Positions 41,383 to 45,431 of a DNA stretch of 64,000 nucleotides are shown here, in pieces; position 1 is the first letter of the stretch, and every line of letters begins with the position of its first letter. The translations under genes were made by a program, and so were the position numbers. The notes beneath the pieces were generated by a model. The model saw only the letters and a program-made list of their open reading frames with translations, was not told where the DNA came from and searched no databases. Source of the DNA: Zeimonas sediminis (GTDB lineage: Bacteria > Pseudomonadota > Gammaproteobacteria > Burkholderiales > Burkholderiaceae_E); the NCBI RefSeq assembly GCF_023721795.1, contig NZ_JAMQYE010000001.1, forward strand, positions 2,232,001 to 2,296,000, in the 5' to 3' direction.

Positions 41383-42027
41383 GTGGGCGCCCGACCGCTG
41401 ATCAGGCCGCTGGAGCGGCTCGCCTATGGCGAGGCGCTCGCCCGGATGCGGGCTTTCACCGCATCGCGCGAGGCCGGCACGCGCGACGAGATCTGGCTCG
41501 TCGAGCACGAACCGGTGTTCACGCTGGGCCTGGCGGCCCGCCGCGAGCACCTGATCGCGACCGGGAACATCCCGGTCGTGCAGACCGAGCGCGGCGGCCA
41601 GGTCACGTATCACGGCCCGGGGCAGGTGCTGGCCTACGCGCTGATCGACCTGCGCCGCCACGGCCTGATGGTGCGCGACTTCGTGCGCGTGATCGAGCAG
41701 GCGGTCATCGAGGTGCTGGCCGGCCTCGGCTTGACCGCGGTCAGGCGGGAAGGCGCACCGGGCGTGTACCTTTCCGGGCCCGGCGGGGAGGCCGGGGCTA
41801 AAATCGCGTCCATCGGGATCAAGGTCTCGCGCGGCTGCACCTACCACGGCGTCGCGCTGAACGTGGCGATGGACCTCGAGCCGTTCGGGCGGATCGACCC
41901 CTGCGGCTATCCGGGGCTGGCGGTCACCGACCTGCGCAGCCTGCTCGGCCCCGCCGCTCCCGCCATGGAAACCGTGGCCACCCTGCTCGGCGAGAAGCTC
42001 GCCGACCTGATCGAAGGCAAAGCATGA
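41383..42027 (+). CDS. lipB: Lipoyl(octanoyl) transferase
   Basis: 214 residues from a GTG. Octanoyl-binding block [26 protein letters not shown] near 67, the catalytic Lys in [20 protein letters not shown] near 144, and Cys in IDPCGYPGL near 171. It moves octanoate from octanoyl-ACP to the lipoyl domains of 2-oxoacid dehydrogenases. The GTG at 41383 is the first start codon after the DUF493 stop. ATGA overlap with lipA. Confidence 0.93.
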
Positions 42028-43010
42028 CCTCGCCCCTGCCCCCCTCGTCCGACAAGGCCGCGCCGGCCTACGACCCCACCGCCAAGCAGAAGTCGGCGGC
42101 CAAGACCTCGCGCATCCCGATCAAGGTGGTGCCGGCCGGCGAGATCCTGAAGAAGCCGGAGTGGATCCGCGTGAAGGCGGGCTCCAGCTCCACCCGCTTC
42201 AACGAGATCAAGCAGATCCTGCGCGAGCACAAGCTGCACACGGTCTGCGAGGAGGCCTCCTGCCCGAACATCGGCGAGTGCTTCGGCAAGGGCACGGCCA
42301 CCTTCATGATCATGGGCGACAAGTGCACGCGGCGCTGCCCGTTCTGCGACGTCGGCCACGGTCGCCCCGATCCGCTCGATGCGAACGAGCCCGAGAACCT
42401 CGCGAAGACGATCGCCGCGCTGCGCCTGTCCTACGTGGTGATCACCAGCGTGGACCGCGACGACCTGCGCGACGGCGGCGCCCAGCACTTCGTCGACTGC
42501 ATCCGCAAGGTTCGCGAACTCTCGCCGGCCACGAAGATCGAAGTGCTGGTGCCGGACTTCCGCGGCCGCATGGACCGCGCGCTGGCCATCCTGGAGGCCG
42601 CCCCGCCCGACGTGATGAACCACAACCTGGAAACCGTGCCGCGCCTGTACAAGGAGGCGCGCCCGGGCTCGGACTACGCGCATTCGCTGAAGCTGCTGCA
42701 GGAGTTCAAGCGGCGCGTGCCCGGCGTACCGACCAAGTCCGGCCTGATGGTCGGTCTCGGCGAGACCGACGACGAGATCCTCGCGGTGATGCGCGACATG
42801 CGCGAGCACGACATCGACATGCTGACCATCGGCCAGTACCTTGCGCCTTCGACCGCCCACCTGCCGGTGCGCCGCTACGTGCATCCCGACGTGTTCCGGA
42901 TGTTCGAGGAGCGCGCGTACGAGATGGGGTTCACGCATGCGGCGGTGGGGGCGCTGGTGCGGTCGAGCTATCACGCGGACCAGCAGGCGCACGCGGCGGG
43001 CGTGGCCTGA
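42024..43010 (+). CDS. lipA: Lipoyl synthase
   Basis: 328 residues. Auxiliary cluster cysteines C75, C80 and C86 ([12 protein letters not shown]), radical-SAM cysteines C101, C105 and C108 (CTRRCPFC), and the C-terminal RSSYHAD motif whose Ser ligates the auxiliary cluster. It inserts two sulfurs into the octanoyl chain. Standard partner of lipB (4-bp overlap). The structured repeat element A starts 57 bp after its stop. Confidence 0.97.
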
Positions 43011-43066
43011 GCGGCGTGCGGCCGGGCCTGCGGCGCCCGGCGTGCGCTGCGTTCGATCGGTCGCGC

Positions 43067-43281
43067 GCATTCGCCCGGGCCGGCGGGCGGCGAGCCCGAA
43101 CCCGGGCAAGTGCTGCGGCCCCGCTGCGCGGGGCTGCCCTCGCCCACCTCGAAATCTCGCACCCGCCTCGCAGGGGGCTTCGCCCCGCGGCGAGCGGGTC
43201 CCGCGAGATTTCTTTCGGTGGCGCTCGGCTTGCACAATGCCCGGGTTCGGGCTCGCCGCCCGCCGGCCCTGGATGTCGTGC
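43067..43281 (+). repeat. Structured palindromic element, copy A
   Basis: A 215-bp element downstream of lipA. A perfect 32-bp outer inverted repeat (43077-43108 with 43238-43269) encloses two inner hairpins: GCCCCGC/GCGGGGC (43118-43134) and a longer one starting GAAATCTCGC/GCGAGATTTC (43151-43160 with 43203-43212) that continues with ACCCG/CGGGT, CTCGC/GCGAG and GGGGC/GCCCC. The copy at 44467-44684 is the same element on the other strand, with stems kept by paired changes. It carries no ORF of its own. It fills most of the 392-bp gap 43011-43402. Confidence 0.88.
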
Positions 43282-43402
43282 ACTGCGGATCGCTGACGCT
43301 CCCCGTCCTCTCCCGCTCTCTGCCCGCTCTGCCTCGCCTCTCTCTCGCCGGAGGCCGCGCCGTCCGCACACTTCACCGCCAAGCTCTGCCGGAGGATTCG
43401 AC

Positions 43403-43870
43403 GTGAACGCTCCGCTCGCCATCAACGCGCCGCTGGCCGCGCTGCAGACGCACCCCTGGGCCTTTCCGGCGCTGGAGGCGCTCCACATCGCGGGCATCGC
43501 GCTGATGCTGGGCAACCTGGTGATCTTCGAGTTGCGGCTGTTCGGGCTCGGCGCGGGCATCGCGCTGCGGCCGCTGGCGCGGCTGGCGCTGCCGCTGGCG
43601 GTCGCCGGCTTTGCGGCGATCGTCGTCAGCGGCTTGCTGATGTTCGCAAGCCAGGCGGGGGAATTGCTGACGAACCCGGCGTTCCGGCTGAAGATGCTGC
43701 TGCTGGTCGCCGCCGGCTGCAACGCGGTCTGGTTCCACGCGCGCGGGTCGCTGGCCCGCGCCGAGGCCAGCCCGGCCGGCGCCGACCCGCTCGGCCGCCT
43801 GCTGGGCGCCCTGTCGCTCGCGCTGTGGCTGGGCGTGCTCGCCTGCGGCCGGGCGATCGCCTACGTCTAG
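43403..43870 (+). CDS. Small membrane protein (DUF2214/DUF6644-like)
   Basis: 155 residues with about four membrane helices: EALHIAGIALMLGNLVIFELRLFGLG, ALPLAVAGFAAIVVSGLLMFAS, LKMLLLVAAGCNAVWFHARG and GALSLALWLGVLACGRAIAYV. GTG start 6 bases after GGAGGA. Family assignment is tentative; members are often placed next to DUF6152 secreted proteins, as here. Function unknown. It lies between repeat elements A and B. Confidence 0.8.
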   Translation: MNAPLAINAPLAALQTHPWAFPALEALHIAGIALMLGNLVIFELRLFGLGAGIALRPLARLALPLAVAGFAAIVVSGLLMFASQAGELLTNPAFRLKMLLLVAAGCNAVWFHARGSLARAEASPAGADPLGRLLGALSLALWLGVLACGRAIAYV

Positions 43871-43880
43871 ACGTCTGGAT

Positions 43881-43902
43881 GCGATGGTCGGCCGACCATC
43901 GC
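43881..43902. promoter_or_regulatory. Perfect 22-bp palindrome
   Basis: GCGATGGTCGGCCGACCATC plus GC reads the same on both strands. It lies 10 bp after the membrane-protein stop and 18 bp before the DUF6152 ATG, overlapping the site where a leader would start. It could be an operator for a dimeric regulator or a short hairpin; perfect symmetry without a loop favours a protein site. Confidence 0.6.
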
Positions 43903-43919
43903 GCCTGAAGGAGAACCGA

Positions 43920-44408
43920 ATGCATCGACGAAGGATCCTCGGCCTCATCGGCTCGACGCTCGGCGCCGCGCTGGCCGGCGCGGCGCCCGGCAGCGTGCTC
44001 GCGCATCACGGCTGGTCCAGCTTCGACCCGAACCGGCCGCTCTACCTGCGCGGCCGCATCAAGGCGGTGCGCTGGCGCAATCCGCATGCCGAGATCGACC
44101 TCGAGCCGGCCCCGGGACTGGCCCTGCCCGGCGGCCTCGAGTCCCGCGCCCTGCCGGCCCAGGTTTCGCAGTTCGACGGCAAGGCGATCCTCGCCGCCAC
44201 GAAACTGGTGCCGCGCACCGACGTCGTCTGGACCGTCGAGCTCGCGCCGCTCACGCGGATGCAGGCCTGGGGCGTGGAGCCGCTGAAGGAAGGCGAAACG
44301 GTCGAGATCGTCGGCTACACGCTGACCGACCAGAGCGAGCCGGTGCTCCGCGCCGAGTGGCTGTTCAGGGCTGGCAAGACCTACGGTCTGCGCTCGTCGC
44401 CGGCCTGA
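43920..44408 (+). CDS. DUF6152 family secreted protein
   Basis: 162 residues. Signal peptide with Arg-rich start (HRRRILGLIGSTLGAALAGAAPGSVLA) then HHGWSSFDPNRPLYLRGRIKAVRWRNPHAEIDLE, which is typical of DUF6152. The HHGW segment may bind metal. A compact OB-like beta fold is likely. ATG follows AAGGAGA. Partner of the membrane protein before it; both together look like a two-gene unit flanked by inverted repeat elements. Confidence 0.85.
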   Translation: MHRRRILGLIGSTLGAALAGAAPGSVLAHHGWSSFDPNRPLYLRGRIKAVRWRNPHAEIDLEPAPGLALPGGLESRALPAQVSQFDGKAILAATKLVPRTDVVWTVELAPLTRMQAWGVEPLKEGETVEIVGYTLTDQSEPVLRAEWLFRAGKTYGLRSSPA

Positions 44409-44466
44409 GCGGCCGGGGGCGAGGCGCGGCCCGAACGGCCGGGGATCGGCGCAGCCGCCCCGCACG

Positions 44467-44684
44467 GCACGACATCCAGGGCCGGCGACGGGGAAGGCCG
44501 CTTCCGGGCACTGTGCAAGCCGAGCGCCACCGAAAGGAATTTCGCGGGACCCGCTCGCCGCGGGGCGAAGCCCCCTGCGAGGCGGGTGCGAAATTCCGAG
44601 GTGGGCGAGGGAAGCCCCGCCGAAGGCGGGGCCGCAGCACCGTGCCCGGAAGCGGCCTTCCCCGCCGCCGGCCCGGGCGAATGC
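44467..44684 (-). repeat. Structured palindromic element, copy B
   Basis: Inverted copy of element A, 218 bp, in the 309-bp gap between the convergent DUF6152 and livF genes. Outer stem 44479-44511 with 44642-44674, one mismatch that becomes G-U if the minus strand is transcribed. The inner hairpin stem reads GGAATTTCGC/GCGAAATTCC against GAAATCTCGC/GCGAGATTTC in A: two base pairs exchanged on both sides. The outer stem differs strongly in sequence but still pairs. The first hairpin has CCCCGCC-TTC-GGCGGGG. No coding sequence. Confidence 0.88.
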
Positions 44685-44717
44685 CACCAACGAGCGGTGG
44701 CGCCGAGTCCCGCCCGT

Positions 44718-45431
44718 TCAGGCCACGCCGAGATAGGCCTGCCGGATGTAGTCGTCCTTCGACAGCTCGGCGCTGGTGCCCTCGCGCCCCACGTGGCCGT
44801 GCTCGAGCACGTACACACGGTCGGCGATCCTCATCGCCGACTGCGCGTCCTGCTCGGCCATCAGGATCGCGGTGCCCGACTCGCGGATCTTGCGGATCGC
44901 GTCGAAGATTTCCATCTTCAGCTTGTGCGCGATGCCGACCGAGGGCTCGTCGAGCAGCAGCAGCGCCGGCTTGCCCATCAGCGCCCGGCCGATCGCGACC
45001 ATCTGCTGCTGGCCGCCCGACAGCGTGCTGACCACCTGCGCCGCCCGCTCGCGCAGGATCGGGAACAGCGAGTAGACGAAGTCCAGGTCGCGCTGCACCG
45101 CGTCGCGGTCGCGCCGCAGGTAGGCGCCGAGCATCAGGTTCTTCAGCACGGTGAGCTCGGGGAACAGCCGGCGGCCCTCCGGGCAGTGGCAGATGCCCTT
45201 GCCGACCACCTCGTGCGCGGCAAAGCCTTGCAGCGATTCGCCCCGCAGGTTCAGCACGCCCTGCGAGGGCTGCATCCGCGACACCGCCTTCAGCAGCGTC
45301 GACTTGCCGGCGCCGTTCGGCCCGAGCACCGACACGATCTCGCCCTCGCCCACCGACAGGCTGACGTTCTCGAGCGCGATCGCCTTCCCGTACCAGACCG
45401 ACAGGCCGGAGACTTCGAGAAGGGGCTTCAT
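44718..45431 (-). CDS. livF: Branched-chain amino acid ABC transporter ATP-binding protein LivF
   Basis: 237 residues. Walker A GPNGAGKS near 37, Q-loop, ABC signature LSGGQQQM near 135, Walker B LLLLDEPSVGIAH near 155. The second of two ATPases in HAAT-type importers; the absence of the HGH loop of LivG supports LivF. Its ATG overlaps the livG TGA. Last gene of the SBP-livH-livM-livG-livF unit. Confidence 0.95.
   Translation of the reverse strand: MKPLLEVSGLSVWYGKAIALENVSLSVGEGEIVSVLGPNGAGKSTLLKAVSRMQPSQGVLNLRGESLQGFAAHEVVGKGICHCPEGRRLFPELTVLKNLMLGAYLRRDRDAVQRDLDFVYSLFPILRERAAQVVSTLSGGQQQMVAIGRALMGKPALLLLDEPSVGIAHKLKMEIFDAIRKIRESGTAILMAEQDAQSAMRIADRVYVLEHGHVGREGTSAELSKDDYIRQAYLGVA

Follow-up and report, generated by a model that had tools for sequence, protein, structure and literature searches.

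The DNA analysed here, referred to throughout as the window, is a 64-kb stretch of the Zeimonas sediminis genome. Within it, two related branched palindromes, elements A and B, lie on opposite strands on either side of two genes, and each element follows a further gene of its own. The features of the locus are, in order of position:

42024..43010, plus strand: radical SAM gene with a lipoyl-synthase N-terminal domain, upstream of A
43067..43281, plus strand: element A, whole, type I, 215 nt
43067..43083, plus strand: left end of A, GCATTCGCCCGGGCCGG, the same or almost the same in several type I copies
43074..43108, plus strand: left arm of A, variable in sequence, 97% complementary to its partner 43238-43272
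43110..43237, plus strand: core of A, a conserved three-way junction
43119..43133, plus strand: hairpin H1 of A, bounds set by hand from the sequence
43151..43212, plus strand: inner hairpin of A, type I, with both double-changed pairs, bounds set by hand
43238..43272, plus strand: right arm of A, complementary to the left arm
43268..43280, plus strand: right end of A, CCTGGATGTCGTG, the same or almost the same in several copies
43403..43870, plus strand: ORF between A and B, no Pfam match at E 1e-5
43920..44408, plus strand: DUF6152 gene between A and B
44467..44684, minus strand: element B, whole, type I, 218 nt
44476..44516, minus strand: right arm of B in the element's reading direction, including part of the closing stem, 93% complementary to the left arm
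44512..44641, minus strand: conserved core of B
44637..44677, minus strand: left arm of B in the element's reading direction, including part of the closing stem, 93% complementary to the right arm
44718..45431, minus strand: ABC transporter ATPase gene, upstream of B, which we take to be LivF-like

Element A is separated by 56 bases from the stop codon of the lipoyl-synthase-like gene, and B by 33 bases from the stop codon of the minus-strand ABC-transporter ATPase gene. A sequence-only reading of this locus had described A and B as inverted copies whose arms differ between the copies but pair within each, forming an outer stem of 32-33 bp, and had pointed to two pairs changed on both sides in an inner 10-bp stem. 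This description was borne out: a BLAST search with A gave 87% identity over query positions 1-215, and the inverted repeat between the two spans 43128-43288 and 44460-44620 (161 nt, 89%). The arms are complementary at 97% in A and 93% in B, the stem extends outward from the core over 32 columns (A) or 33 columns (B), and both double-changed pairs are present (GAAATCTCGC versus GGAATTTCGC, with matching partners). Folding of A gave an MFE of -173.6 kcal/mol (z -12.5) and folding of B one of -172.6 kcal/mol (z -12.7), values equalled by none of 200 shuffles in either case.

The reading had also proposed a covariance-model search for further copies, and many were found. The model (R1) was built from 40 copies picked from 50 non-redundant HMM matches (alignment A2); as these are chosen matches, its E-values are rough. 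At E 0.01 it identified 27 copies in the source genome (G000), A and B included. At E 1e-4, copies were detected in 17 of 74 genomes of the family, many of them drafts: 13 of 18 in the source genus, which includes Zeimonas arvi, with 1-27 copies each, and 4 of the 56 others (3/10 in genus g3 and 1/5 in genus g4). BLAST with A matched 16 of the 41 genomes searched, some of the matches being short. An order-wide covariance survey was positive in 2 of 399 genomes, a weak negative given that 7 candidates were scored per genome. For comparative analyses we used 78 copies, the 27 from the source genome and 51 from relatives, the latter kept by hand out of 93 R1 matches after same-place repeats, matches cut by contig ends, a complete one lying where a contig begins (L027) and two degenerate matches (L050 2385 and L012 1237) were dropped. 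Among 21 contig stretches, those of Pontiella (L053) and Variovorax (L063) were dropped as chance-like by sequence and fold. A gave no blastn match on plasmids or phages and the type pattern gave none in viral contigs, and a plasmid, phage or viral origin was dropped for lack of matches.

Several draft contigs start or stop inside elements (G006 C58, C152 and C244; G008 C26 and C16; G017 C33; G009 C167). Such breaks are expected if long hairpins break assemblies, so that copy numbers from drafts are lower bounds. One element (L066, JABWBD010000164.1, 46-201) lies on a contig assigned to a Pirellulales MAG; its arm and core match, by eye, those of the right-hand element in the Burkholderiales MAG PRO2 (L048/L055), and the contig looks misbinned.

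From the outside inward, the ends of an element are followed by the arms and these by a closing stem. Inside this come hairpin H1, a further stem in which a C is bulged, and the inner hairpin. The ends (left GCATTCGCCCGGGCC, right CCTGGATGTCGTG, or near variants) occur in a number of source-genome copies. This genome holds two inner types that have the core in common: type I, represented by A and B, and type II, with the form AACTCG-hairpin-CTCAGACAG. Measured outward from the core, arm length is 31-34 columns in 46 of the 78 copies, 28-42 in 57 and 64-160 in 17, and the measurement gave no arm in 2. The four longest arms, at 142-160 columns, are 94-99% paired. The long-armed copies (at least 64 columns) come from few genomes, mostly drafts; among the 15 that have an upstream gene in the same direction, the edge of the palindrome falls 3-16 nt past the stop codon in 10, and at -25, -22, 24, 29 and 69 nt in the other five.

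Elements with the type II hairpin may be more widely distributed in the order. The pattern AACTCGN{4,24}CTCARACAG had 161 matches in 41 of 120 Burkholderiales genomes, against 51 matches in 39 genomes for a reversed control. As the control is nearly as widespread, presence of the pattern is uninformative and copy number is the informative quantity: at least three matches were found in 18 of the 120 genomes, compared to 1 of 120 for the control. In the source genome, 15 of 19 pattern matches fall within R1 copies; A and B, being of type I, do not carry the AACTCG motif. Core-like flanks (a left-hand TTCCC together with a right-hand CTCGGC) accompany 13 of 35 order-wide matches versus 14 of 2000 random positions, in a test on 20 neighbourhoods from 16 genomes that were selected for paired or hairpin-forming matches. 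With R1, a single one of these 20 neighbourhoods falls below E 0.001 (L212, 6e-6). We take the order-wide AACTCG elements as likely linked to the family of A and B through type II, the link being tentative for type I. A shared A-rich stretch like GCCAAGAAAAGTAACCAAAAGAAGGCGACCCC precedes several of the order-wide elements (L206, L214, L217, L223 and others), which may therefore extend further outward than described.

With regard to position relative to stop codons, another point that the reading had singled out, the elements lie directly downstream of stops and mostly between convergent genes. Of 75 copies that could be classified among the 78, 47 are convergent, 18 tandem sense, 8 tandem antisense and 2 divergent; both neighbours were called by a small codon-based gene finder trained on the window alone, which fails on lower-GC genomes, whose counts were left unused, and paired elements are counted twice. 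As background, 8 of the 70 adjacent gene pairs in the window are convergent. The difference between sense and antisense at tandem sites (18 to 8) is not significant (p 0.076). The twenty neighbour genes that were scanned include ordinary enzymes and regulators such as OTCase, an amino acid kinase, RNase H, NrdR and valyl-tRNA synthetase.

Many elements are paired. In the source genome 12 of the 27 copies form six close pairs, all in the order plus then minus, and among the motif matches listed, 18 of 20 neighbours less than 600 bp apart (from 9 genomes) have this order, 5 of these 18 in the source genome. The partners of a pair can differ in type and in arms. Two element pairs on G000 C1 (1194658-1195134 and 1196812-1197303) lie about 2 kb apart and the listed arms of their minus members are identical, which suggests that they arose by segmental duplication. 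At another locus (L050 2385-2498, in G001), a third, degenerate element sits between both members of an inverted pair.

Nine sites correspond between the source-genome loci that were compared and the element loci fetched from Zeimonas arvi (G007). At the site of A (L072 in Zeimonas arvi), the inner arms are unrecognisably different and nevertheless paired in both species, the outer CGCCCGGGCCGG is common to them and the core is kept. The arms are likewise replaced and the core kept at L031/L080. At L034/L084 the element is inverted in place between collinear flanks, and at L040/L086 the arms are nearly unchanged but one species has a type II and the other a type I inner domain. Four sites have alignable arms; they show 11 two-sided changes, all compensated and 7 of them unreachable through G-U, and 5 one-sided changes, of which 2 produce G-T.

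Cores and whole elements also come and go. One plus-strand element at L038/L091 is without a core, its arms left, and the Zeimonas arvi counterpart of L032 is a remnant that has lost its core. At the former site (L038 1390-1484 compared with L091 3120-3430), G000 has left-end-like sequence repeated three times in tandem and then a right end, with no core; this repeat could be read either as a scar or as a pre-element state. Zeimonas arvi has an additional minus-strand element at L085 and an additional plus-strand element at L089, the minus partner of the latter being only a remnant recognised by eye and unscored by R1. Element-free sites were found in G001 for A, for B and for the L042 site, and in G000 for the L079 site. 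No target-site duplication was seen at the L032, L042 and L079 sites nor at A and B, the element-free sites being too diverged to place the ends. We do not favour A and B as the ends of a composite transposon around the two intervening genes, as A and B each come after a separate upstream gene and, in Zeimonas arvi, A is whole and B is a truncated remnant.

The apical sequences of the inner hairpins bear on exchange between copies. Type I copies of G000, including A, L031, L034 and L035, have one common apical sequence (CTCGCAGG), and the Zeimonas arvi counterparts of these four have CGTAAGG (two), CGTAGG or CATACG. The type I copies of Zeimonas arvi do not all have one apical loop, and the apical sequence agrees between L036 and L090. 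The uniformity in G000 suggests that copies in this genome may have exchanged sequence, an argument drawn from G000 alone.

Compensated changes are usually taken as proof of functional RNA, and the sequence-only reading had treated them as the mark of selection on structure, RNA or cruciform DNA. That the structure recurs and covaries is upheld. In the 40-copy alignment, 93.2% of cells are paired, compared to 68.9% in shuffles; the covariation score is 0.524, compared to 0.120 when shuffled and 0.056-0.103 when slid; two-sided changes occur in 30 of 38 pairs; and none of 500 shuffles reached both the pairing and the covariation of the element alignment. The further step, from compensation to selection, is not supported as stated. 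In a 36-pair structure the element has 321 two-sided and 4 one-sided cells, the cells being sequences and not events, so that 321 is inflated by descent. RNase P RNA from the source genus (17 of 18 genomes, with no match in the remaining one), given the same treatment, has 52 two-sided and 63 one-sided cells, a contrast to be read with the mean column identities in mind (91% for RNase P, 65% for the element), as one-sided states of the element may have been overwritten over time. Outside one invariant G-U column, the element stems contain 5 G-U and 12 A-C cells, whereas RNase P RNA has 121 G-U and 6 A-C.

The arms and inner hairpins give a similar picture. Over the first 30 arm columns of the 78 copies there are 2216 Watson-Crick, 5 G-U, 27 A-C and 24 other cells, and with a looser extension over all columns 4479 Watson-Crick, 74 G-U, 71 A-C and 203 other cells and 80 gaps; by the counts from both extension schemes, G-U is thus not favoured over A-C in the arms. 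Inner hairpins of the AACTCG type (n = 48) have 293 Watson-Crick, 2 G-U, 3 A-C and 7 other cells. The element therefore does not show an excess of G-U intermediates over A-C, the sign of selection on RNA. The 27 to 5 predominance of A-C in the inner arms refers to the sense strand, A-C being equivalent to G-U on the antisense strand.

We hold the family, structure and location of the elements with high confidence. As to their nature, we judge on balance that A and B are dispersed extragenic branched DNA palindromes past stop codons, whose arms would be kept complementary by replication template switching, and we favour, with moderate confidence, the view that the covariation is due mainly to arm copying. 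The palindrome would become single-stranded during replication, and the nascent strand could fold back or switch strand and copy one arm from the other, such that a change in one arm would soon be present in both. Exchange between copies within one genome would keep many cores alike, palindrome-stimulated deletion would remove cores, and sites behind genes would be those where elements are tolerated; incidentally, the elements may act as a barrier between the transcripts of convergent genes. One study describes replication template switching as making compensatory, multi-base and loop-inverting changes in one step (PMC8794818). On that account, such changes can arise without selection (PMC8794818). 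Template switching would explain the perfect yet unrelated arms, the few wobble states and the in-place inversion. The conserved junction bases exceed the reach of arm copying, and template switching alone does not explain the dispersal or the 3'-end location either; selection acting on the core, or exchange between copies, has to be invoked as well. Selection on structure may act in addition to copying. The excess of A-C over G-U in the inner arms (27 versus 5), which pure copying does not predict, and the 5 one-sided changes among orthologues also count against arm copying. Like the template-switch-maintained hairpins of PMC8794818, the elements have two-sided, multi-base compensated changes and loop inversion; unlike those cases, which concern RNA genes such as rRNA, they form a dispersed repeat, almost all of whose arm pairs vary.

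Alternatively, the elements could be non-autonomous and mobile, possibly moving as pairs, with the ends and branched core serving as a single-stranded DNA substrate for a putative transposase or recombinase, as REPs do for RAYTs. We regard this as a possibility, though a doubtful one. Many dispersed near-identical cores, ends common to the copies, presence or absence that varies between relatives, the additional elements of Zeimonas arvi (minus-strand beside L085, plus-strand in L089) and the inverted pairs (18 of 20 plus then minus among the motif neighbours listed) all argue for it. On the other hand, no target-site duplication was found at the examined sites, whose element-free versions are too diverged to place the ends, the L032 site of Zeimonas arvi is a remnant, pair partners can be of different type and have different arms, and neither A on plasmids or phages nor the type pattern in viral contigs found a match. 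The transposase domain Y1_Tnp (Pfam PF01797) has 0 matches in G000 and none in the five source-genus genomes searched; of the 23 genomes searched that bear the element or the motif, 11 lack it (among them G000, G001, G004, G007, G008 and Derxia gummosa, G041), and 4 of 5 genomes free of the motif have it.

REP sequences sit at gene ends. PMC2817692 describes them as extragenic palindromes in multiple copies and inverted pairs, usually more than 100 per genome, with RAYT transposases. The elements resemble REP/BIME in being extragenic palindromes in several copies and inverted pairs (PMC2817692), and differ in their length of about 215 nt, their three-way core and variable arms, and in having 1-27 R1 copies per element-bearing genome (no more than 27 in any of 74 family genomes, many of them drafts) rather than the usual more than 100 (PMC2817692). 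Membership in REP/BIME, which are mobilised by RAYTs, was rejected as Y1_Tnp was not found in the five source-genus genomes searched; the elements are REP/BIME-like in layout and outside that family.

It is rather unlikely, in our view, that the elements are transcribed 3'-end RNA elements (a terminator, RNase barrier or processing signal) in which RNA selection keeps the pairing and demands compensation so strictly that wobble would seldom appear. The conserved core, the same-direction upstream gene in 67 of the 77 copies with an upstream gene called, and the palindrome edge 3-16 nt past the stop in 10 of the 15 long-armed same-direction copies would fit such a role. Most of the same-direction cases are convergent, however, where either orientation qualifies, and the tandem bias is 18 to 8 (p 0.076). 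Moreover, G-U does not exceed A-C in the sense strand (arms 5 versus 27, stems 5 versus 12, against 121 versus 6 in RNase P), in-place inversion would reverse the RNA, and the longest arms reach 142-160 columns at 94-99% pairing. In 42500-45200, a search that covers A and B only, there was no T tract after a hairpin, unlike in intrinsic terminators, and no sigma-70-like promoter. The element may have a role at the transcript level. More improbable still is a self-arming mobile branched palindrome which, once inserted behind a gene, would copy its flank by core-primed fold-back synthesis and grow outward until close to the coding sequence; the convergent pair would move as a unit by means of a putative enzyme, and the element would occur in several Burkholderiales families. 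The near-equal spread of the AACTCG pattern and its reversed control lowers the probability of this last reading.

We also compared the elements to other known systems. Integron attC sites are placed after an ORF and are palindromic, with structure kept while sequence varies, and the elements resemble them in these traits. MITE-like repeats (Correia, RUP, BOX, ERIC) are, like the elements, short dispersed palindromic repeats between genes; the elements differ in that their arms vary by copy, and no target-site duplication was seen at the examined sites. The reading had known of no named family with this layout, and no Rfam family (release 15) was found at threshold on A or B: at the gathering score the 64-kb window gives only four tRNAs, eight loci searched at E up to 5 gave four sub-threshold matches, none covering elements, and a search of 20 order-wide loci that allowed E up to 1 gave only two sub-threshold STnc40 matches, on L212 outside the element. 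An antisense twister-sister ribozyme match on L037 was rejected (23.9 bits versus a gathering score of 34, E 0.57). The accessible portion of the open-licence literature yielded no published description of the family.

The elements constitute a repeat family for which no name was found. Almost all of its arm pairs carry changes on both sides, and yet the wobble states that RNA selection would lead one to expect are scarce; RNase P RNA from the source genus does show them. The family provides a caution for RNA discovery by covariation, and a system in which template switching during bacterial replication can be examined orthologue by orthologue.
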